Shown here piece after piece: positions 1-20,285 of a DNA stretch of 20,285 bases. This DNA comes from a virus: positions 1-20,285 of IMG/VR virus record IMGVR_UViG_3300014887_000009. The stretch is one strand, 5' to 3'. Below the pieces are notes generated by a model. It was not told the origin of the DNA. It searched no databases and saw only the letters and a list, made by a program, of their open reading frames with translations. Within the stretch, counting starts at the first letter, position 1. Every line of letters begins with the position of its first letter. Made by a program: the position numbers and the translations under genes.

Positions 1-165
1 ATCTACTCCCGCTTCTGCCCATCCTATGCTGTACTCTATGTCTGGAATAACGGATTTCAAGGCTTGAGTTAATGCTTGTCCAACTTTTTCTCCACATTTT
101 TCTGTTCTGGAAATGGCTTTTAGGTAATTATTGAATAGTTCTGTTATAGAAGTTTTCTTTTCCAT
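1..165 (-). CDS. Hypothetical protein, partial (runs off left edge)
   Basis: This reading frame enters from the left edge with its N-terminus inside the window, giving 55 residues beginning MEKKTSITELFNNYLKAISR. The ATG at 165 has a strong Shine-Dalgarno site just upstream on the minus strand (AGGAGGG). It overlaps the 3' end of the sigma-factor gene by 22 bases, which suggests translational coupling and shared transcription. The visible part looks helical and mixed-charge, with no signal peptide or membrane segment. I do not recognise a family. It is probably the third gene of a leftward regulatory or early operon. Confidence 0.6.
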   Translation of the reverse strand, partial: MEKKTSITELFNNYLKAISRTEKCGEKVGQALTQALKSVIPDIEYSIGWAEAGVD

Positions 166-851
166 ATTTCCCTCCTGTCAGCATTGATGTTATTTTTTTG
201 GAGTTGATTTTGAATTGCTCTTATGACACGATGGTAAATTTGCGATACTCGTTGCCCAGAGATTGACCATTCTTTGGCGATAGTGCGAAGACTTTTTTGT
301 TCTAGGAGACCTTCCAGAATTTTCCTCTCCCTACCATGTACAAGAGACAGAATCTTGGTGAGATCCAGTTGATTTTCAAGCATTGTGTCGAAATCACTGT
401 CAATTAAATCATCAAACGTCCCGTGTGGTATTTCTTCTACTGCTTCAGTTCCTGTGAGGAGATCCATTATCGTTTCAACTGATTCACAGTCAGGCGATTG
501 GTGAGAGTGGATAAAGCGGGTGATGAATCCATAAATCCACCAGGCAGCATAGGTCGTGAAAGAGAACCCCAGTTCAGGACGAAATTTTTCGATTGCTCGC
601 ATTATGCCAAAGATGCCTTCGGTGACCAGATCATCAATATCGTAAGGTGGAGGAGGGTCGAAGCGCACTGCAATCAGAATGGCCATTGGGACACATTTGA
701 GGATAATCTTTTCCTTAGCTTTCTCATCACCTTTCCGGTATTGCTCATGCAGTTCGTTACAGCTTTCTTCTATGGTTGGTACTTGCCAGTGGAATCCCTG
801 TACTTTTGCACTATGGGAGGCAGGAAAGAATAGAGTAATGGGGTTCTTCAT
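144..851 (-). CDS. Phage-encoded sigma-70 family RNA polymerase sigma factor
   Basis: The 235-residue product resembles a sigma-70 family factor that would redirect host RNA polymerase. Region 2 spans about residues 32-118. Its core (DIDDLVTEGIFGIMRAIEKF and FSFTTYAAWWIYGFITRFI) matches the 2.2-2.4 helices that bind the beta' clamp and open the -10 element. Region 4 spans about 165-218 and has a helix-turn-helix (LRTIAKEWSISGQRVSQIYH) for a -35 element. Regions 1.1 and 3 are absent; a short acidic linker (about 120-165) joins the two domains. This resembles alternative sigma factors more than a housekeeping one. The ATG overlaps the stop of the upstream gene as ATGA, with GGAGG upstream, so translation is coupled. 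It is transcribed away from the virion genes. The regulon is inferred only; it may drive middle or late phage genes. Confidence 0.88.
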   Translation of the reverse strand: MKNPITLFFPASHSAKVQGFHWQVPTIEESCNELHEQYRKGDEKAKEKIILKCVPMAILIAVRFDPPPPYDIDDLVTEGIFGIMRAIEKFRPELGFSFTTYAAWWIYGFITRFIHSHQSPDCESVETIMDLLTGTEAVEEIPHGTFDDLIDSDFDTMLENQLDLTKILSLVHGRERKILEGLLEQKSLRTIAKEWSISGQRVSQIYHRVIRAIQNQLQKNNINADRREIWKRKLL

Positions 852-2148: not shown

Positions 2149-2436
2149 ATGGCTTACGCAAGATGGTCATGGAGTGATTGGTATATATTCTGGCATGCTT
2201 CAGATGCGAAGAGAAAAGAGGATGAGATTTTAGCAGTATGGCATATAGGGTCAAAGGATTACCCTACTTACAACTATAGGGAGGTTAAAGAAATGCTTAG
2301 GAATAATGATTTTTCAAGAATTGAAGGGTATTCACCTCAAGATCACATTTTCCTTCGGGAAATTTTTGAAATATGGATAAGCGACATTGATAAGTGGTAT
2401 CAGGAGCGTGGTGATGAGTGCACATCCACTACATAA
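2149..2436 (+). CDS. Hypothetical protein rich in Trp and Asp
   Basis: This 95-residue protein begins MAYARWSWSDWYIFWHASDA. The ATG at 2149 follows the previous stop by one base and has an AGGAGGTTAGG ribosome binding site, so longer in-frame starts upstream were rejected. It is unusually rich in aromatic residues at the N-terminus and at EIWISDIDKWY, and appears soluble. I recognise no family. Its end overlaps the first glycosyltransferase gene by 19 bases, so it may serve the same pathway. Confidence 0.6.
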   Translation: MAYARWSWSDWYIFWHASDAKRKEDEILAVWHIGSKDYPTYNYREVKEMLRNNDFSRIEGYSPQDHIFLREIFEIWISDIDKWYQERGDECTSTT

Positions 2437-3428
2437 CAGGGAGTATTGATGGCTGTAGCCTTGTCCAGTGCTATATTCCTGCCAAATATTTATCCCGCCT
2501 TCCTGATGTAAAAGCAACTATATCCTCTTACCCTGAATACATAGAAGATCCAGATCTTCATAAAGCTGATCTCGTAGTTTTACAACGCCAGATAAAGAAT
2601 TCTGTTTTCCAGTACATGAAAAAGAATAAATCCAATCAGCTATTTATCTATGATCTTGATGATGACCTCTGGGCAATTCCGCCCGATTTTCCTACCAAAC
2701 CGCTCTGGCCAGACAAGAAGCTGGGGATTGTGAAAATTTTCATTGAGGAATGTGGCATTTTAACTGTCCATTCAGAAGGAGCTTATAAGAATTTGAAAGA
2801 GAGATTTCCCGGAGCAAAGATTTATTTACTTCCTCCTCTTGTTGATTTTGAAAGAGCTGTATCAAAAAGAAGACCGAATCGCTCTGAGATCAGAGTGGGA
2901 TGGCAGGGATCGTCTTCTCATATGAAGATAGCTGAACATGTAGCTCATGCAGTGGTTCAGGTAATACGAGGAGATCCTGATATACGAACTGTCTGGTTGG
3001 GGTTTCTTCCTACTCCAGTGAAGCGTCTTCCTTGGTGGCAGTGGGAATACTATGACTGGGTTGACATTGACCATTTTTATGAAGTACTTGGAGCACTGGA
3101 TATTGATATTGGATTAGCGCCTTTACCTTCAATTCCTTTTACTGCAACTCGTACAATTAGAAAGCTTTTGGATTATGGTATGTTCAAGATTCCGGTAATA
3201 GCTACAGATATTAAACCTTTTTCTTCTTATCCTGATCTCTATTATCCCGTTGATGCATCAAATAAATTGAACAAATGGCGGAGGGCAATTATTGATATGG
3301 TGGAAAATAAAGATTTGCGAGAAGAGTACGCTGAACGTCTTTATACATTCACGAAGAAATATGATGCAAAGGAGCGGGTAAAGGAATGGCTCGACGTATA
3401 CAAAGAAATACTCGCATTGTGTTCTTAA
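2418..3428 (+). CDS. Glycosyltransferase-like protein (GT-B fold, GT1/GT4-like)
   Basis: The 336-residue product has the shape of a GT-B retaining glycosyltransferase that moves a sugar from a nucleotide donor. The N-terminal Rossmann half contains the acidic loop FIYDLDDDLWAIP (77-89). The C-terminal half starts near 158 with RVGWQGSSSHMK, the usual glycine-rich opening of the donor-binding domain. It continues with DIDIGLAPLPSIPFTATRTI and LLDYGMFKIPVIATDIKPF (about 228-268). These match the pattern in which a single-domain GT4 enzyme binds the nucleotide sugar and recycles it. The start is GTG at 2418, inside the end of the preceding gene, and the gene overlaps the next one by 43 bases. 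The acceptor cannot be read from the sequence. Candidates are a virion protein, host surface glycan or modified DNA. Confidence 0.8.
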   Translation: MHIHYITGSIDGCSLVQCYIPAKYLSRLPDVKATISSYPEYIEDPDLHKADLVVLQRQIKNSVFQYMKKNKSNQLFIYDLDDDLWAIPPDFPTKPLWPDKKLGIVKIFIEECGILTVHSEGAYKNLKERFPGAKIYLLPPLVDFERAVSKRRPNRSEIRVGWQGSSSHMKIAEHVAHAVVQVIRGDPDIRTVWLGFLPTPVKRLPWWQWEYYDWVDIDHFYEVLGALDIDIGLAPLPSIPFTATRTIRKLLDYGMFKIPVIATDIKPFSSYPDLYYPVDASNKLNKWRRAIIDMVENKDLREEYAERLYTFTKKYDAKERVKEWLDVYKEILALCS

Positions 3429-4459
3429 GTGAAGCTGATGATTGTTGCTTATGGAAAATATGTGATGAGCTGGCTCCAGCTACTCCAAAGAATCTCATTT
3501 TTCATAAGGTCTGCGGAGTACAGAATTTTGTACAGTTTGGGAAGGAAAAGTTTTTTATTCTGAATCGGATTGGTGGGCGTCTTAATAGTCTTGTTCATAA
3601 CTGGTTGTTGAGCTTGATGGAAGATCCATCCAAGCGTTTCGTCTACTTTATTGATGATGCGATTGATTATCGAAATGATAATTTGCCTTGGAAGTTTATG
3701 GAAAAGGCAACTGCCATCCTCGTTCCGACAAAGTCAATGAAGGAATATCTGATTGAAAAGAATAGTGATATAGCAAACAAGATTGCAGTGGTACGCACTC
3801 ATATCAACCTTAAACTGCTTGCTCATGTTGCTCCACTGGCCAGAATAGATGACCGTATCCAGATTATGTGGGGAGGTGGCGGATTGACTGGATTGCCAAT
3901 CATCAAAGACATAATAACTTATCTTGACCAGAAGAGAAAGGATGTAAGATTATTCTGTGTTGGTGCGAAAATAGGATTGGTACGGACATATCTCGAACCA
4001 GTACGGAATATTGATATTCGCTATTTTGAATTTCTTCCATACAAGGACTTTGTGAGTATTTGCAAGGCTTCGTTGATTCATCTCAATCCATTGTGCCCAG
4101 AAGAGGCAAACATTCTTGTTCATGATTTGAAAGATCCAGAAGCTTTTATAAGAGTTAAAGCACCGATTAAATTCATACATGCTGGGGAAGCTCAAAAAGT
4201 TTTGATTACTACTGCTATTCCTTCTTATGAAGAAGTAGTGGTGCATGGGGAGAATGGATTTTTAGCTCGGAAAAAAGATGAGTGGATTGATCTCATTGAT
4301 TATCTTCTGGATAATCCTGATCGAATAGAGGATATAGGGAAGAAAGCTCGGCAGACAGTAGAGGAGAAGTTTGATACTTCTTTGCTTGTTGATCAATATC
4401 TTCAAGTGTATCTGGGTGATGAATATGAGAAGATCGTCATGGAGCCGGGAATTTCTTGA
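3386..4459 (+). CDS. Second glycosyltransferase-like protein (GT4-like)
   Basis: This 357-residue protein shows the same GT-B plan as its neighbour but is clearly a different gene. The N-terminal half includes RFVYFIDDAIDYRND (84-98) and ILVPTKSMKEYLIEK. The donor half begins with IQIMWGGGGLTGLPIIKDI (158-176). A region typical of GT4 proteins (KAPIKFIHAGEAQKVLITT and YEEVVVHGENGFLARKKDEW) lies at about 258-300. The last 60 residues form the usual closing helices. The start ATG lies inside the previous glycosyltransferase gene, so the two are almost certainly co-translated and may act in sequence on one glycan. The gene overlaps the downstream HTH gene by 35 bases. Donor and acceptor are unknown. 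Confidence 0.8.
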   Translation: MARRIQRNTRIVFLSEADDCCLWKICDELAPATPKNLIFHKVCGVQNFVQFGKEKFFILNRIGGRLNSLVHNWLLSLMEDPSKRFVYFIDDAIDYRNDNLPWKFMEKATAILVPTKSMKEYLIEKNSDIANKIAVVRTHINLKLLAHVAPLARIDDRIQIMWGGGGLTGLPIIKDIITYLDQKRKDVRLFCVGAKIGLVRTYLEPVRNIDIRYFEFLPYKDFVSICKASLIHLNPLCPEEANILVHDLKDPEAFIRVKAPIKFIHAGEAQKVLITTAIPSYEEVVVHGENGFLARKKDEWIDLIDYLLDNPDRIEDIGKKARQTVEEKFDTSLLVDQYLQVYLGDEYEKIVMEPGIS

Positions 4460-10343: not shown

Positions 10344-11306
10344 ATGGCAAGGAAGAAGCAGGAAAATCTGGAGGAAAAGATAATGGAGTCTGAGCTTGGC
10401 CCCACAGCGGATGATATAATGAAGCTGTGGAATGGGACAGGCTCGACTGAGGAAGAACCAGAGGTCACTGAGGAGGAGAAGGGAACGGAGGAGCCCACGG
10501 AGGAGGAGAAACCTCAGGCAGAAGAGGAAGGGTATGAGGATCTTCTGAAGCTTTTGCCTGAGAAGTTCCGGAGTCAAGACCCGAAAGAGGCTCTCAAGCG
10601 ATTTGTAGAGTCTTATCGGGATCTTGAGTCACGGCTAACGCAGACCTCTATGGAACTTACGGAAGCTACCAAACTGTTGCGCACACTTGCTGGCGCTTCC
10701 TCTGCGCAGCCTGTGCCTGAGTCACAGTCTCAGAAGGAAGGAGAGGATGTTAACATTAAATTTGATATTAAGCCGGACGAGTATTATCAGAATCTACCTG
10801 AAGCAGTTCAGAAAACTGTGGTTCAGGCAATTAAACAGGCAGTACAGCAGTATCGCCCTGACCAGTACGCTGCACAGGCAATGCAGCAGGTAATGGCGCA
10901 GATGGCTCTTGCGCAGTTGCGTTCTCGTGATCCGAAGACTTTTGAGCTGGTAAAGGGTGATCTCCTACAGGTGCTTCGTGAGAAGCCTCATCTTGATACC
11001 ATTGAAGGGCTTGAGATTGCGTACGAGGAAGCGAAACAGCGGTACAAAGCGCGGCAGGAGGAGCTCCGTAAGCAGCTCATAGATGAGAACTTTGTCAATT
11101 CCCTCAAGGAGGGAATCCTCAGAGAGATTGCTGCGAAGGTGGGATCTCAGGCAAGGGAAGCTACTGGTGTTCCCCAAGAAGCGACCGGTGGTGGATCTTC
11201 TGAGGTTGCCAAGAAGGAGGCAGAGAAGAAGTCTCCTTCCGAGGTACTCTCTGATATGATCATGTCAGTTGGAGCAAAGGCTCCACTTCTGACTGAAGAC
11301 TTCTAA
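10344..11306 (+). CDS. Scaffold-like head assembly protein
   Basis: This 320-residue protein has the composition and position of an internal scaffold that guides capsid assembly and is then removed. Residues 35-65 are highly acidic (runs of E with P and T). The middle is helical and coiled-coil-like (LKRFVESYRDLESRLTQTSM, about 83-102). A Q- and A-rich helix follows around 160-190. The C-terminus, about 230-320, is mixed-charge and helical, where scaffolds usually bind the capsid protein. It lies immediately before the major capsid gene. ATG 10344 follows GGAGGG by seven bases; an out-of-frame ATG at 10340 is ignored. No protease domain is visible inside it. Scaffolds vary greatly in sequence, so the call rests on context and composition. 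Confidence 0.78.
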   Translation: MARKKQENLEEKIMESELGPTADDIMKLWNGTGSTEEEPEVTEEEKGTEEPTEEEKPQAEEEGYEDLLKLLPEKFRSQDPKEALKRFVESYRDLESRLTQTSMELTEATKLLRTLAGASSAQPVPESQSQKEGEDVNIKFDIKPDEYYQNLPEAVQKTVVQAIKQAVQQYRPDQYAAQAMQQVMAQMALAQLRSRDPKTFELVKGDLLQVLREKPHLDTIEGLEIAYEEAKQRYKARQEELRKQLIDENFVNSLKEGILREIAAKVGSQAREATGVPQEATGGGSSEVAKKEAEKKSPSEVLSDMIMSVGAKAPLLTEDF

Positions 11307-11344
11307 CCTTCTAAGCAATCAAAATTTTACGGAGGTGAAAGAAA

Positions 11345-12520
11345 GTGGCTACCGTTATAAGTGGTGCTGCCGGGACTTTTGACGTTCTGGCTCAGAGGCT
11401 TGTTGTGGATATGTCTCCTAAGATCTATCTCCTTGAACCGGATTCGGCCCCGCTTACAGTTCTTCTCAACAAGCTTACCAAGGAGAAGGCTGAGAATCCT
11501 AGGTACGACTGGATGGAAGATGAATTGATGCCTAACTGGACTAACATTACCAACAATGCTGGCACTGGAACCACCATTACTCTTGGTGCTTCTGCTGGTG
11601 CGACCGGACATGCCAAGTATGTTACCAAGTATTCGCTGATCAAGGTGCCCTCCACTGGGGAAGTTATGCTGGTTACGGCTGTCAATGAGTCCACTGGGGA
11701 TATTACCGTGACTCGTGGTTATGGTACCGATGTATCTTCAGTGGATGGTTCTTCAACTCCTGAACCTGTGGTTATTATCGGTACTGCGTTTGCTGAGGGT
11801 GCTGCTGGTTCTGAGCTGACTCATCACACCACCAAGCAGACCGGTAATTACAATTATATCCAGATCTTCCGTGAGCCTGTGAAGGTTACCAGGACTGCTG
11901 CCCTCACCAATATGTATGGTGGGAAGCTGCGGGTTACCGAGCAGGCGAAGAAGGGTATTGAGATTCTGAGGAACATTGAAAACGCTTTCCTCTATGGCGT
12001 TCGGTACCTTGATTCCAGCGGTGAGCGGCGCACAACTGGTGGGGCTCTCTATTTTATCAGCACCAATTCTACCAATATAGGTGGGTCTCTTACCTACACT
12101 CAGCTTGAGAACTTCCTGCGTTCTGTTTTCAGGTATGGACGTCAGAGGAAGTTCTTGATTGCTTCACCGCTCGTAATGTCTGCTCTCAGCATTATAGCTG
12201 AGGCGAGAGGCTCTGTCCGTCTGGTACCGAAGGCCACTTCCTATGGTGTATCCATTCGCCAGTGGAGCTCTCCTCATGGAGACATTATGCTCCTGAAGGA
12301 TGTAAACCTGACTGGTTCTACCTATGGTGGGTATGGTATTTGCCTTGAGCTTGAAGAGTGTGGTTTCAGATACATGCAGGACGTGACTCTGGAGACCAAT
12401 GTACAGAACCCTGCTGATCTGTTCTATCTGGACGTGTACACTGCGATGGTGGGCTTTGAGCTGCACAACGAGCAGAAGCACGGAGTAATGTATGGAATTA
12501 GCGGTGGTAGTGGCAGCTAA
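11345..12520 (+). CDS. Major capsid protein (HK97 fold, SU10-like head protein)
   Basis: The 391-residue product should build the icosahedral head. The N-terminal arm (TFDVLAQRLVVDMSPKIYLL, 11-30) and the following EPDSAPLTVLL and DWMEDELMP segments resemble SU10-type major head proteins. An insertion domain lies at about 95-145 (LIKVPSTGEVMLVTAV, then DITVTRGYGT), a beta-rich surface module common in this class. The later half (about 165-390) gives the E-loop/P-domain/A-domain order, including FLIASPLVMSALSIIAEARG in the long helix region. Start is GTG after GGAGGTGAAAG. Codons are richer in C and G at third positions than in the neighbours, as expected of a highly expressed gene. It is followed by a strong terminator. 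Confidence 0.9.
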   Translation: MATVISGAAGTFDVLAQRLVVDMSPKIYLLEPDSAPLTVLLNKLTKEKAENPRYDWMEDELMPNWTNITNNAGTGTTITLGASAGATGHAKYVTKYSLIKVPSTGEVMLVTAVNESTGDITVTRGYGTDVSSVDGSSTPEPVVIIGTAFAEGAAGSELTHHTTKQTGNYNYIQIFREPVKVTRTAALTNMYGGKLRVTEQAKKGIEILRNIENAFLYGVRYLDSSGERRTTGGALYFISTNSTNIGGSLTYTQLENFLRSVFRYGRQRKFLIASPLVMSALSIIAEARGSVRLVPKATSYGVSIRQWSSPHGDIMLLKDVNLTGSTYGGYGICLELEECGFRYMQDVTLETNVQNPADLFYLDVYTAMVGFELHNEQKHGVMYGISGGSGS

Positions 12521-12558
12521 TAACAGCGAATGTTAGTTCGTTGTTTAAATTTTAGAAT

Positions 12559-12590
12559 GGGGAGGGAGTAAAATCCCTCCCCTTTTCTTT
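12559..12590 (+). terminator. Strong intrinsic terminator after the major capsid gene
   Basis: A perfect nine-base-pair stem, GGGGAGGGA (12559-12567) with TCCCTCCCC (12574-12582), encloses a six-base loop. TTTTCTTT follows directly. This is a textbook rho-independent terminator for the scaffold-capsid transcript. Confidence 0.92.
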
Positions 12591-12600
12591 ATGCTTTAAT
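12590..12600 (+). promoter_or_regulatory. Possible extended -10 promoter restarting transcription after the terminator
   Basis: TATGCTTTAAT begins within the U-tract of the terminator and matches the TRTGN extended -10 found at the other module borders, with one change in the hexamer. The -35 position falls inside the terminator stem and has no match, so this promoter is weaker evidence than the others. It would start close to the ribosome binding site of the gene at 12617. Confidence 0.4.
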
Positions 12601-12616
12601 TGTGAAGGAGGGTAAG

Positions 12617-12958
12617 ATGCCAGTAACGGGGAAAGGAAATGATGATCTGAAGGAAATAGAAAAAATACTGGAACGGAATAAGTCCAAACCATTTGTTAAA
12701 CGCATTTTACAGTATAGGCGATATCCGAAACTGAAGATAAATAATCGTGAGGCTACCCATTTAATGACATGGATGGAAGTAGGGAAGGGACGATATGCTG
12801 TATTTCCCACGGTTTTGTACGAAAAAGGTAAGTTAATCCGTTATTCTCCTAGAAAAGCATGGGAAAAAGTGCGTGAGAGCGGGAATTATATTCTTTTCCA
12901 TAGCCCGGAGAGGGCTGATTGGTTTTCAAAGAATTACAAAAAATATTGGCAAAGATAG
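12617..12958 (+). CDS. Hypothetical phage protein with ATHLM and FPT motifs
   Basis: The 113-residue protein starts at ATG 12617, five codons after an in-frame GTG that overlaps the GAAGGAGGG ribosome binding site. It contains NREATHLMTWMEVGKGRYAV and FPTVLYEKGKLIRYSPRKAW (about 45-85). The end reads NYILFHSPERADWFSKNYKK. The order (a polar HLM segment, a PT motif, then a glycine-led turn and an F-x-S-x-x-x-A helix) resembles a small domain that recurs in phage virion proteins, usually as part of larger internal proteins. Its function is unknown. Here it stands alone, right after the capsid terminator. Confidence 0.65.
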   Translation: MPVTGKGNDDLKEIEKILERNKSKPFVKRILQYRRYPKLKINNREATHLMTWMEVGKGRYAVFPTVLYEKGKLIRYSPRKAWEKVRESGNYILFHSPERADWFSKNYKKYWQR

Positions 12959-12964
12959 AGATTT

Positions 12965-12981
12965 CTAAAATAGACTGAGGA
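12965..12981 (+). promoter_or_regulatory. Leader element shared with 10314-10333
   Basis: CTAAAATAGACTGAGGA lies just before the AAGGAGGAGA ribosome binding site of the zinc-finger gene and repeats the scaffold leader element with a three-base deletion. Confidence 0.35.
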
Positions 12982-12996
12982 AGGAGGAGATGAGCA

Positions 12997-13515
12997 ATGG
13001 CTAATAAAACAAAAAGCTGGACGTTTTACAGCAGGCACAAAAACTTGCAGATCTGGTTACGGCAACCTGTGGAGACGTATGATACACGAGGAAAATTGCG
13101 TGTGGTTGATCCTGGAATACTTGTTGAATTTGAAGGAGGGCATTACAGTACAACTGATCCTGTGATTGCGGAAGGGCTTATGAAGCATCCAGATTTTGGC
13201 CGAACTTTTGAGTTATTCAAGGGTAATCCAATCTCTCCAGAAGAGATGAAAGAAAATGCCCTTACTGCAATCAAGAAATCAATTGAAGCAGGGCCTCCGC
13301 CGGGTGATATAATTCCCGGAACGAAGGTGAAAAGAGTTTATCGCTGTAAGGAATGTGGAGCAACCTTCACTTCTGTTTACCATTTGACAAAGCATAAGCG
13401 AGAGGCTCATCCAGTCATTGCTGAAGAGAAGATTGAGAAGATAGAGGAAAGTAAGGAGGTTGATTCAAATGGCCAAGAAGAAATCAAAGAAGAAACTTCC
13501 AGCCCAGCAGATTAA
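12997..13515 (+). CDS. Head-region protein with C-terminal C2H2 zinc finger
   Basis: This 172-residue protein has two parts. Residues 1-75 form a small globular domain (VDPGILVEFEGGHYSTTDPV, IAEGLMKHPDFG) of a kind I associate with small genes downstream of phage capsid genes; function unknown. After a proline- and glycine-rich linker (98-110), residues 115-139 form a classical C2H2 zinc finger: C117-x2-C120, twelve residues, H133-x4-H138, with the usual F124 and L130 core positions. The last 30 residues are acidic and probably disordered. The finger could bind packaged DNA, a capsid partner or host nucleic acid. C2H2 fingers are uncommon in bacterial virus structural genes. It has a strong AAGGAGGAGA site and overlaps the next gene by 47 bases. 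Confidence 0.75.
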   Translation: MANKTKSWTFYSRHKNLQIWLRQPVETYDTRGKLRVVDPGILVEFEGGHYSTTDPVIAEGLMKHPDFGRTFELFKGNPISPEEMKENALTAIKKSIEAGPPPGDIIPGTKVKRVYRCKECGATFTSVYHLTKHKREAHPVIAEEKIEKIEESKEVDSNGQEEIKEETSSPAD

Positions 13516-17087: not shown

Positions 17088-18692
17088 ATGGCAGAACAAG
17101 TTTTTATACTTGATGATTTTTCAGGCGGTCTTCGATATGGATTTGCTAATCAGGAAGTCAAAGTGACTGAAGGTGTACTCTTTGAAAATGTTCTCTCAAT
17201 GCCTCATAATTATTTACGCTCTCGCTCTGGTTATGTAAAAAAGAACACCGGAGGGAAGCCAGGCAAAGGCGCTTGGATAAATGGTATTTCTCAATTTTGG
17301 GATGCTGATGGTAACACTCACTTAGTTTGCACCACGTGTGAAGATCCAACCAATGGTGTTACTGGAGCAGGAATTTTTAAGTTTAATGACAATACAAAAG
17401 ATTTTACCGATCTTACTGGATCAACTATAACTTGGAACCCAGGGCCAGAAGATTTGACTTTCTTTGACTCTTTTAGTGGCTGTCTTGTTATGGTTAATGG
17501 AAAGAATTATCCTGTGATCTGGGATGGCAAATCATCTGAAGTACAACAATTTGGAGTCAATTTTTCTATTACCGGTACTAATTGTATTCCTAAATATATC
17601 CGAGCTTATAAACAGTTCTTGTTCTTTGGTTATACGATAGAAGATGATATCATATACAATTCTCGTATCCGTTGGTGTGAACCAGCAGATATTACTCAAT
17701 GGCCGGAGAACAACTACATTGATCTTGACGCAGATGACGGGGATATCATTACTGGGATGGAATTGATAAGTGATTGGTTAGCTGTCTTTAAGGAACGTAA
17801 GATATTCATTGTTGGTTACAGTGGTGGGGAGCAGGTGTTTGAAGCCCGGCTTGTGATAGATGGCCGTGGGTGTTCTTCTGGTGCTTCACTTACAGCTATT
17901 TACAATGACCTTATTTTCCTTGCTGAAGACGGAATTTACTCTTTTGATGGTACTGTCAATATTGAAGAGATCTCAGCTAAAATAAAACCGCTGATCCTTG
18001 AGATCAATCCGGATAAACGTCATCTTGTGCAATCTGCTCCTCTTGAGGAGCTGGATCAACTGTGGTTTGCCATTCCTCATCTTTCTTCTGAAAAGAATAA
18101 TCGTGTTCTTATTTTGAATTATACCAACCCTGACGAAGAGTGTTGGTATGTATATGATATACCATGTAGTACTCTGGGATTTTATTACCGTGTTGGAGAA
18201 CTTACTTGGGAGGATATGACTGAAGAATGGGATTCTTACGATTTCAAATGGGATGATCGGATGATGCTTTCTGCTACCAGTTTGCTCCTTTCAGCCGATT
18301 ATGAGGGGAACTTGTACGATCATAATTCGGGAAACAATGATGATGGCTCTGCTTTTACTTCCAGATGGCAGAGTAAATATATAGATTTTGGTGCTCCATA
18401 TCTCAATAAGAGACTCAAGAGGATAATTCTTTGGGTTGGGAAGGAAAGTGAAGGTAAGACACTTAAAGTTAAGCTATATAAAGATTATGATGAGCTCAAT
18501 CCGAGTGAATTTACAGTAAATCTTTATGATTCCACATTTCCGAATAGGAATATTCTGGAGAGAAGGATTGATATGTCTGAGCAAGCACGGGAGTTCAAAC
18601 TGGAGCTATATCAGGATGAGCTGAATGCATGCTGGTCAGTTTATAAAATTGCCTTCATATTTGACGTTAAGGGAAGGGTAATCAGGACATGA
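17088..18692 (+). CDS. Tail nozzle protein, P22 gp10-like (packaged DNA stabilisation)
   Basis: The 534-residue product should cap the adaptor and form the tail nozzle that keeps packaged DNA inside. It is beta-rich with many short strands, like propeller-type nozzle proteins. Residues 191-247 hold the hallmark: NSRIRWCEPADITQWPENNY, then IDLDADDGDIITGMELISDW and LAVFKERKIFIVGYSGG. After that come SGASLTAIYNDLIFLAEDGI and YSFDGT, another blade signature. The C-terminus (about 425-534) is a separate beta domain. Translation starts at ATG three bases after the fibre stop, without a strong Shine-Dalgarno site (weak GCGGTAAAAG), so it probably depends on coupling. Its stop overlaps the next ATG (ATGA). 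Length fits the family. Confidence 0.82.
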   Translation: MAEQVFILDDFSGGLRYGFANQEVKVTEGVLFENVLSMPHNYLRSRSGYVKKNTGGKPGKGAWINGISQFWDADGNTHLVCTTCEDPTNGVTGAGIFKFNDNTKDFTDLTGSTITWNPGPEDLTFFDSFSGCLVMVNGKNYPVIWDGKSSEVQQFGVNFSITGTNCIPKYIRAYKQFLFFGYTIEDDIIYNSRIRWCEPADITQWPENNYIDLDADDGDIITGMELISDWLAVFKERKIFIVGYSGGEQVFEARLVIDGRGCSSGASLTAIYNDLIFLAEDGIYSFDGTVNIEEISAKIKPLILEINPDKRHLVQSAPLEELDQLWFAIPHLSSEKNNRVLILNYTNPDEECWYVYDIPCSTLGFYYRVGELTWEDMTEEWDSYDFKWDDRMMLSATSLLLSADYEGNLYDHNSGNNDDGSAFTSRWQSKYIDFGAPYLNKRLKRIILWVGKESEGKTLKVKLYKDYDELNPSEFTVNLYDSTFPNRNILERRIDMSEQAREFKLELYQDELNACWSVYKIAFIFDVKGRVIRT

Positions 18693-19003
18693 TTCACCCA
18701 CGCTACTTAACATCATGGGAGAAGTCTCAGCTTCCTATTTTGAATAGTATTATCTCCGATCTGATTCGACATGTCAATCGCTGGATCTTCGGAAGTGGGT
18801 ATAAACACGACATTGAAGTTACAGATACTGGCCCAGCGGATACTGATTTTACTGTAAATCATAACCTTGGGTACCAGCCATCTGGTTGGATTTTGTATTA
18901 TCAAGATAAGGCTGGAAGTTTGTATGTGGTTAGCTGGAATGAAACACAAGCAACTTTTAGATTCAGTGCTGCGAATGCACATATAAAATTTAGGTTGTTT
19001 TAA
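18689..19003 (+). CDS. Small tail protein, hypothetical
   Basis: The 104-residue protein begins MIHPRYLTSWEKSQLPILNS and overlaps the nozzle gene by four bases (ATGA). The first 40 residues look helical. The C-terminal part (FTVNHNLGYQPSGWILYYQD, about 54-73, and a final YVVSWNETQATFRFS segment) is a small beta domain. Its H-NLG-x-x-P-x-G pattern recurs in short phage tail proteins. Such proteins usually sit on fibres or on the tail tip. The specific partner is not evident. Confidence 0.65.
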   Translation: MIHPRYLTSWEKSQLPILNSIISDLIRHVNRWIFGSGYKHDIEVTDTGPADTDFTVNHNLGYQPSGWILYYQDKAGSLYVVSWNETQATFRFSAANAHIKFRLF

Positions 19004-19013
19004 TAAAGTGATT

Positions 19014-19415
19014 ATGGCTTGGAGGAAGTATAATGAAAGCCTTCTTGGGTATGGATATCAGCCGTATGGGAATTCGTGGTTTGGTGGGCAATTGAGATGG
19101 ACTGGGGCTTCTCTAAGTGATATTATTTGGGCAAGTGGGCTTGGGGAGGATAGTGCTTGGCAAAAGTCTTCCGAAAATGAAATTTTGTGGGATAATGAAT
19201 CTTTTGATAAAAGTGGTTGGCTGAAAATCACTAACGATGGAGTCGAATGGAATGAAAGATCTTTCACTGTAAATGATTGGGAATGTTGTTCGGAGAAGGA
19301 AATTCAATGGAACAAGGAATTTTCTAATGAAGAAAATTGGAAAATACTATCTGGAAAGGAAACCCAATGGAATTATAACATTTCGGAGCAGATAGAATGG
19401 AAGAAGGAGGGGTAG
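19014..19415 (+). CDS. Tail-region protein made of 20-residue Trp repeats
   Basis: The 133-residue protein begins MAWRKYNESLLGYGYQPYGN. From residue 29 on, tryptophan occurs at 29, 39, 49, 59, 69, 79, 89, 99, 109, 119 and 129, every ten residues without a break. Units alternate. Odd ones read W-x3-(S/T)-x2-(E/D/G)-(I/V/T)-x-W; most of the even ones start W-N or W-D. So the true repeat is 20 residues, in just over five copies. This suggests a beta-solenoid or stacked hairpins with a Trp ladder. No transmembrane or catalytic segment is seen. ATG 19014 is preferred; GTG 19008 is two codons earlier, and neither has a strong ribosome binding site. I do not recognise a known family. Confidence 0.75.
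   Translation: MAWRKYNESLLGYGYQPYGNSWFGGQLRWTGASLSDIIWASGLGEDSAWQKSSENEILWDNESFDKSGWLKITNDGVEWNERSFTVNDWECCSEKEIQWNKEFSNEENWKILSGKETQWNYNISEQIEWKKEG
19098..19400 (+). repeat. 30-bp (60-bp) coding repeat with TGG at fixed spacing
   Basis: A TGG codon recurs every 30 bases eleven times from 19098 to 19400, in frame with the Trp-repeat protein. DNA between the TGG codons is diverged, so the periodicity is kept at the protein level rather than by recent DNA duplication. Confidence 0.9.
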
Positions 19416-19416
19416 A

Positions 19417-20285
19417 ATGCCTTCTCGTACTACTAATTACAACCTATACAAACCCGATCTTGGTCAAACTGATCCAGAATGGGGGACTGGATTAAATCAG
19501 AATTTTGATACGATTGATTCAGAATTAAAAAATGCTGAGGATCATCGTAATCTAACCCCTTCCTCTTCTATTAAACCACATAATATATCGGAGGTTGATG
19601 AAACCGATACTGATGTTACTAAAAATAAGGTAGTATCTAATTCCTTAGCTAAAGGATGGGAGGATCATAAGAACTCGGTCATTGGTTCCTCCACTCCTCA
19701 TAATATAGATCAGGTGAACGAAGCCGACACGGATACTACCAAGAACAGGCTCGTGAGTAATGCTCTTGCAAAGGGTTGGGAAGACCACAAGAACACCACC
19801 AGCGGCAATCCTCATGGGGTTGACTTTGTAGAGCTGGACGATGCCCCTTCGGATTACACAGACCAAGCGGGAAAAGCTGTTGTGGTGAAGTCGACGGAGG
19901 ATGGGGTAGAGTTTAGCAACCCCGCTCCTGCTGCTCATGGGCCAAGCCATGAGCTTAATGGTAGCGATCAGATAGATGTCCGTGGCCTCCAAGGAGGATG
20001 GCTTACTGCCGACACGGAAGCAAATAGGCCAGCAGCAGGGACAAAGGATCGTTACTTTTATGCAACGGACACTGGAAAACTTTACTATGATGATGGAACC
20101 TCTTGGATTGAGATCACTCCGACTCCTGCTTCTCACGCTCCTTCCCATCAACCGGAGGGTTCTGATGCCCTTCCTACTGCTATTCCGGGTAACATCACCG
20201 AAGGAGCTACTGCTTCCGAAGGCACCTCAACCTCCTTTGCCCGTGCGGATCATGTGCATGGGACGCCTTCTGAGTGGACTCCGAA
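19417..20285 (+). CDS. Second tail fibre protein, partial (runs off right edge)
   Basis: An open frame of 289 codons runs from ATG 19417 to the window edge. A strong AAGGAGGGG site lies six bases upstream. The N-terminus (TTNYNLYKPDLGQTDPEWGT, then GLNQNFDTIDSEL) is a common tail-fibre attachment module. Two 40-residue repeats follow (HNISEVDETDTDVTKNKVVS with LAKGWEDHKN), then a partial third. After that come KAVVVKSTEDGVEFSNP, a TADTEANRPAAGTKDRYFYA segment and DTGKLYYDDGTSWIEI. The last visible part, STSFARADHVHGTP, is a motif typical of phage fibre shafts. The receptor-binding tip is expected beyond the edge. GC content rises sharply after about 19700, unlike the AT-rich start of the gene. 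Confidence 0.85.
   Translation, partial: MPSRTTNYNLYKPDLGQTDPEWGTGLNQNFDTIDSELKNAEDHRNLTPSSSIKPHNISEVDETDTDVTKNKVVSNSLAKGWEDHKNSVIGSSTPHNIDQVNEADTDTTKNRLVSNALAKGWEDHKNTTSGNPHGVDFVELDDAPSDYTDQAGKAVVVKSTEDGVEFSNPAPAAHGPSHELNGSDQIDVRGLQGGWLTADTEANRPAAGTKDRYFYATDTGKLYYDDGTSWIEITPTPASHAPSHQPEGSDALPTAIPGNITEGATASEGTSTSFARADHVHGTPSEWTP
19579..19818 (+). repeat. 120-bp coding repeats in the second fibre gene
   Basis: Two units starting at CATAATATA (19579 and 19699) are 120 bases apart and encode near-identical 40-residue segments. A shortened third unit begins at 19813 (PHGVDFVEL). The first copy is AT-rich and the second GC-richer, with many synonymous differences. Confidence 0.8.

Follow-up and report, generated by a model that had tools for sequence, protein, structure and literature searches.

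The question raised by this locus is what a small protein, encoded among the tail genes of an uncultured podovirus, might do with eleven tryptophans placed at every tenth residue. The window—the whole stretch of DNA that was analysed, of 20,285 bases—is an IMG/VR record of a podovirus whose portal, adaptor and capsid protein are of SU10 type and which encodes a T7-type fibre domain. The ladder gene lies in the tail region, as the initial annotation had described: it follows a phrog_3287 protein and a 104-aa gene, and it precedes a fibre-like gene truncated by the contig end (Table 1). A GTG at 19008 is an alternative possible start of the ladder gene; the site upstream of the start at 19014 is only weak, and within the opening codons of the gene a strong ribosome-binding-like GGAGG precedes an out-of-frame ATG at 19033, which opens a 20-aa frame ending at 19095 (19021–19095 for site and frame together). 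Elsewhere in the window we noted a phage-encoded sigma-70-like factor with regions 2 and 4 (144–851, minus strand) and, between the lysis and terminase genes, two adjacent genes (2418–4459), of which the first to be named is assigned by Pfam to the group 1 glycosyltransferases, the other being of similar look without a match.

Table 1. Features at the ladder locus, in window coordinates.
Feature	Position	Strand	Basis or remark
Virion structural protein, 534 aa, probably of nozzle/stabilisation type	17088..18692	+	phrog_3287, E 1.3e-39; 87% identical in L121
104-aa gene directly upstream of the ladder gene	18689..19003	+	Conserved in L121
Trp-ladder protein, 133 aa plus stop	19014..19415	+	Open frame without internal stop
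Aromatic/Gly-rich N-terminal stretch GYGYQPYGNSWFGG, putative anchor	19047..19088	+	Sequence comparison
Trp ladder, residues 29–133: ten 10-residue units, then the last Trp and KKEG	19098..19412	+	
Start of fibre-like gene, cut by the window end	19417..20285	+	DNA similarity to the L121 fibre gene resumes at 19973

Translation of the ladder frame placed tryptophan at residues 3, 22, 29, 39, 49, 59, 69, 79, 89, 99, 109, 119 and 129, which confirms the exact ten-residue spacing from 29 through 129 that had been read from the sequence; against this run of eleven, the longest run of equally spaced Trp in 20,000 residue shuffles, over spacings of 3–24, was six. Adjacent units of the window ladder share 7% of their non-Trp residues and 36% of their DNA, while units two apart share 18% and 47%, respectively. 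The units have thus diverged in both protein and DNA; the earlier claim that selection keeps the spacing stands, and the homologues described below hold the period. The alternation of two unit types in a 20-residue repeat, likewise proposed in the initial annotation, proved significant in the window protein (unit-order permutation, p = 0.011) but in none of 11 other long ladders; for this reason we take the family unit to be 10 residues, and the 20-residue pairing was dropped as a family feature. We delimited the family as proteins with at least three Trp at spacing 10 that end within about 12 residues of the stop; in the window protein the last of the 11 Trp lies four residues from the end. 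By eye, without statistics, GYGYQPYGNSWFGG has the aromatic/Gly-rich character of the N-terminal anchors of the family, and it is taken as a putative anchor because other ladder and rope proteins start with YG or WG repeats.

A sequence search retrieved no close relatives of the window protein from viral contigs or cultured phages. Scans of viral contigs for TGG codons at 30-base intervals showed the motif to be widespread. The first scan, which used four TGGAC steps followed by filtering, yielded at least 108 loci and at least 51 distinct proteins. Among the matches listed, 46 of 51 distinct period-10 ladder proteins had exactly six Trp, the last of which lay 1–11 residues upstream of the stop, in most cases 3 or 4; since the first and sixth Trp usually fall outside the scanned pattern, their presence was not forced by the scan. 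The unit consensus of this six-Trp class is W-T-x-[VQI]-[ST]-x-x-S-[END]-T. The second scan, with eight TGG steps, returned mainly tandem DNA repeats and out-of-frame Trp strings, which we removed by requiring diverged units; what it added were ladders of 9–12 Trp, 12 being the commonest number, with an unbroken run of 12 in seven proteins. Two further ladder proteins, L306 and L343, have 12 Trp with one step of 9 residues, a rare slip of pitch. The bead-less ladders of this further set, most of them with 12 Trp (the 12-Trp class), directly adjoin fibre genes. The statement that no phage family bears this signature was accordingly mistaken, period-10 ladders being widespread in viral contigs; the check that had been set beforehand—that homologues should hold the Trp spacing while copy number varies—came out in its favour, with copy numbers of 3, 4, 5, 6 and 9–12. 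The ladder is a widespread protein ending found beside phage tail and side-fibre genes, is real, and is not unique to the window phage. Among the matches listed from bacterial and archaeal genomes, none of 117 stretches encoded a C-terminal diverged ladder, which makes it seem unlikely that the ladder came from a host.

A motif scan imposes the spacing that it detects, and for this reason we also surveyed the gene that follows the PF23140 bead family, a sample unselected for Trp. Among the 43 distinct downstream genes so collected, 22 carried a ladder, and within these 22 all the W–W steps were of 10 residues, except for one step of 20 that has Tyr in the missing slot; six Trp were present in 18 of the proteins and four in three. 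Cultured and named phages, found through the bead gene or through a search with L141, agree: Sinorhizobium phage phiM5 (bead gp17, ladder protein gp18) and ctjtQ328 have 3 Trp each, Ochrobactrum phage OH (bead p47, ladder protein p46) and C72C1 have 4, and ct2t2046 has 6. The bead-linked proteins share a common layout, in which an N-terminal aromatic/Gly-rich or LEQLD-type segment is followed by a repeat array and then by the ladder. In 65 of 67 proteins the array had a period of exactly 20; the first Trp of one sub-family is at index 241, 221 or 161, which values indicate that whole repeats are gained or lost. A bead gene lay upstream in 33 of 46 distinct array-bearing ladder proteins versus none of 11 array-less ones (Fisher p = 1.4e-5, uncorrected for kinship; PF23140 Pfam control). 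The ladder is a C-terminal motif of fixed spacing that is linked to bead genes; and since the array-less ladders have no upstream bead, the simplest explanation would be that the array is there for the beads and that the ladder has another role. A gene that follows a 12-Trp-type fibre in phage ctUtU524 (L364, 3188–3451) has the same aromatic/Gly-rich N-terminus and no ladder, which suggests that the anchor is a separate module.

The identity of the bead gene points to a known type of side fibre. In many loci the gene that precedes the ladder gene belongs to PF23140, named "Podophage GP4 fiber I protein gp80", and ten chains of that family are present in PDB 8jou. According to the GP4 abstract of Zheng et al. 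from 2023, each fibre reportedly has five gp80 dimers joined by an elongated rope protein. GP4 reportedly bears five copies of the fibre per virion. The gene order in Burkholderia phage BcepIL02 is bead gp55, gp56 and gp57, the last being of the gp77 fibre-tail adaptor family (PF23148); both the bead gene and gp56 are annotated as virion-associated, and gp56 contains repeats of about 20 residues, the same kind of array as in the ladder relatives. Given that gp56 sits between the bead and the gp77-family gene, we took the gene after the bead, by position, to be the rope, a presumed identity that rests on gene order and on the GP4 abstract; the rope gene of GP4 itself is predicted to be gp79. 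About ten repeats, counted by eye, in both gp56 and L141 would match the ten gp80 copies, at one repeat per bead. A profile search of the PDB recovered no rope-like chain, which chain could be unmodelled or deposited without sequence. The ladder relatives resemble GP4 fibre I, with its gp80 beads, rope and gp77 adaptor, in lying directly downstream of gp80-family genes; in contrast, the candidate ropes of the GP4/Lessievirus type have an R/V-rich tail and no Trp ladder, a difference that counts against reading the ladder proteins as ropes, and the window differs further from the GP4 fibre I locus in having neither bead nor array. The Lessievirus ropes end in a 9-residue tail of the R.L.V..E type. 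The candidate ropes of Roseobacter phage CRP-4 (L251, 2447–3205) and Methylophilales phage MEP401 (L258, 3397–4212) have three terminal Trp about 13 residues apart (13–15), not 10.

How the window protein relates to these full-length forms is best seen in its nearest relative, IMG/VR contig 3300014913_000015 (L121), whose structural genes, with the 104-aa gene as the last of the stretch, are 79–90% identical in DNA to those of the window. Beyond the 104-aa gene the two diverge until inside the fibre gene. At the locus of the window's ladder, L121 has a bead gene (Pfam PF23140, E 1.2e-8), followed by a string-position protein of five 20-residue Tyr-Gly repeats whose C-terminus has four Trp at spacing 10; the window, at the same place, has a single gene in which the anchor leads straight into 11 Trp without an array. 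There is accordingly a module swap between the two viruses at this locus. The L121 ladder weakly resembles that of the window (E 4e-4 for one pair). No PF23140 gene occurs within the 20-kb window, which is a fragment, so that a bead gene could sit elsewhere. L121 also contains, at 10762–13002, an ATP-grasp, GARS-like gene that appears to be split by a LAGLIDADG-containing intein.

The explanation that we prefer, and that in our judgement has an even chance of being correct, is that the window protein is a predicted virion tail accessory, namely the string ("rope") protein of a bead-on-rope side fibre in a variant form without beads. The full form would consist of an N-terminal anchor, a 20-residue beta-type repeat array that would carry gp80-type beads, and the C-terminal period-10 Trp ladder; the window has no bead gene and its protein no array, and the ladder would have been lengthened to 11. 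Each 10-residue unit may form one short beta strand and a turn, a pattern in which the six-Trp consensus can be read, so that every Trp would face the same side; and the ladder might act as a multivalent strip through which the string docks onto a neighbour, either a fibre or the tail ring. We regard docking to an adjacent protein of tail or fibre as the most likely role, to judge from the persistence of the ladder without beads and array and from its then adjoining fibre genes. Further points against the rope reading are that ladder and bead are separable, since the 12-Trp proteins follow fibre genes without a bead, and that the window ladder has little in common with the consensus beyond the Trp, at 10–23% identity.

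That same adjacency to fibre genes, in the 12-Trp class and in the window, would also suit a non-virion assembly chaperone of the neighbouring fibre, whose ladder would bind nascent fibre strands. We hold this to be very improbable, as the anchor–array–ladder layout of the bead-linked homologues is what a structural string should show, and in BcepIL02 both the bead gene and the gene in the rope position bear the virion-associated annotation. Copy number, for its part, brings up a different function: its strong clustering at 6 and at 12, the latter including L306 and L343 with their single 9-residue step, could mean that the ladder is a clamp round a 6- or 12-fold ring of the tail, in which each subunit takes one unit, and that it stands in for the gp77 fibre-tail adaptor that GP4-like phages have. 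Consistent with such a replacement, the gp77 family, which follows the rope in BcepIL02, was not found in nine ladder-phage records, most of which are nevertheless fragments and include no positive control; ladders of 3, 4, 9, 10 and 11 Trp occur too, however, that of the window among them, and five fibres per virion, as reported for GP4, do not suit one belt per ring. The ring clamp accordingly appears improbable to us. A broader proposal, which we regard as a long shot of the same order, is that the rigid 10-residue-pitch ladder is an apparently virus-specific, undescribed module, clustered in copy number at 6 and 12 as numbers of tail-neck symmetry, and serving as a general clamp that ties strings and fibres to the tail.

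The preferred reading, of a string that docks through its ladder, must also be weighed against one in which the ladder is a self-contained Trp-laddered fold, either a beta-solenoid or stacked hairpins whose Trp pair across strands, and would act as a rigid spike or putative glycan binder. Such a fold would fit the even period of both ladder and array, and the greater identity seen at even lags compared with odd ones, a pattern that suits beta strands. An AlphaFold2 model of the window protein contained just two local hairpins, at 48–60 and 68–81, the mean pLDDT of residues 71–80 being 81; the model as a whole reached a pLDDT of 50.9 and a pTM of 0.26, and the L141 ladder was modelled without secondary structure at a pLDDT of about 30–35. 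The beta-solenoid or hairpin stack suggested in the initial annotation is thus unsupported, though not contradicted, by the prediction, and the glycan binding and fibre capping proposed there are likewise hypothetical. The array profile weakly resembled two solved adhesin-type entries, 4opw (E 2.6e-4) and 3ljy (E 0.015), which we take to be beta-helices, whereas the ladder profile had no match among PDB sequences. Farnesyltransferase alpha, encountered in the PDB matches, was set aside as a chance spacing of Trp. On this evidence we consider the self-contained fold unlikely, though less so than the other alternatives.

With respect to known families, the ladder protein had no profile match in Pfam, PHROGs or NCBIfam at E up to 1, 1 and 0.1, respectively, and the open papers searched contain no description of such a ladder. 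The fibre is of a known type; the ladder module and the bead-less form appear to be undescribed. A comparable neck fibre, a flexible bead chain composed of gp82–gp81–gp80 and present in five copies per virion, occurs in the Anabaena myophage A-1(L) (PMC10966104); the beads of that fibre, however, are chains of globular trimers, neither a rope nor a Trp ladder is mentioned (PMC10966104), and its gp80 has the gene name in common with the GP4 bead. Strict Trp periodicity in viral proteins is found also in WxxGx pentapeptide arrays, which have a Trp at each fifth residue, with as many as about 54 in succession, in viral contigs L074, L075, L103, L107, L108 and L110; these arrays of large phages differ from the period-10 ladder in their period of 5, their near-tandem units and their length, and constitute a separate family.

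The ladder offers a signature by which to search for string proteins of a type of side fibre that is common in uncultured viruses and named in none of the family libraries searched. The pitch, which does not slip while the intervening sequence changes, bespeaks a strong structural constraint; and the natural series of array plus bead, array plus short ladder, and ladder alone means that experiments can tell apart what the array does and what the ladder does.
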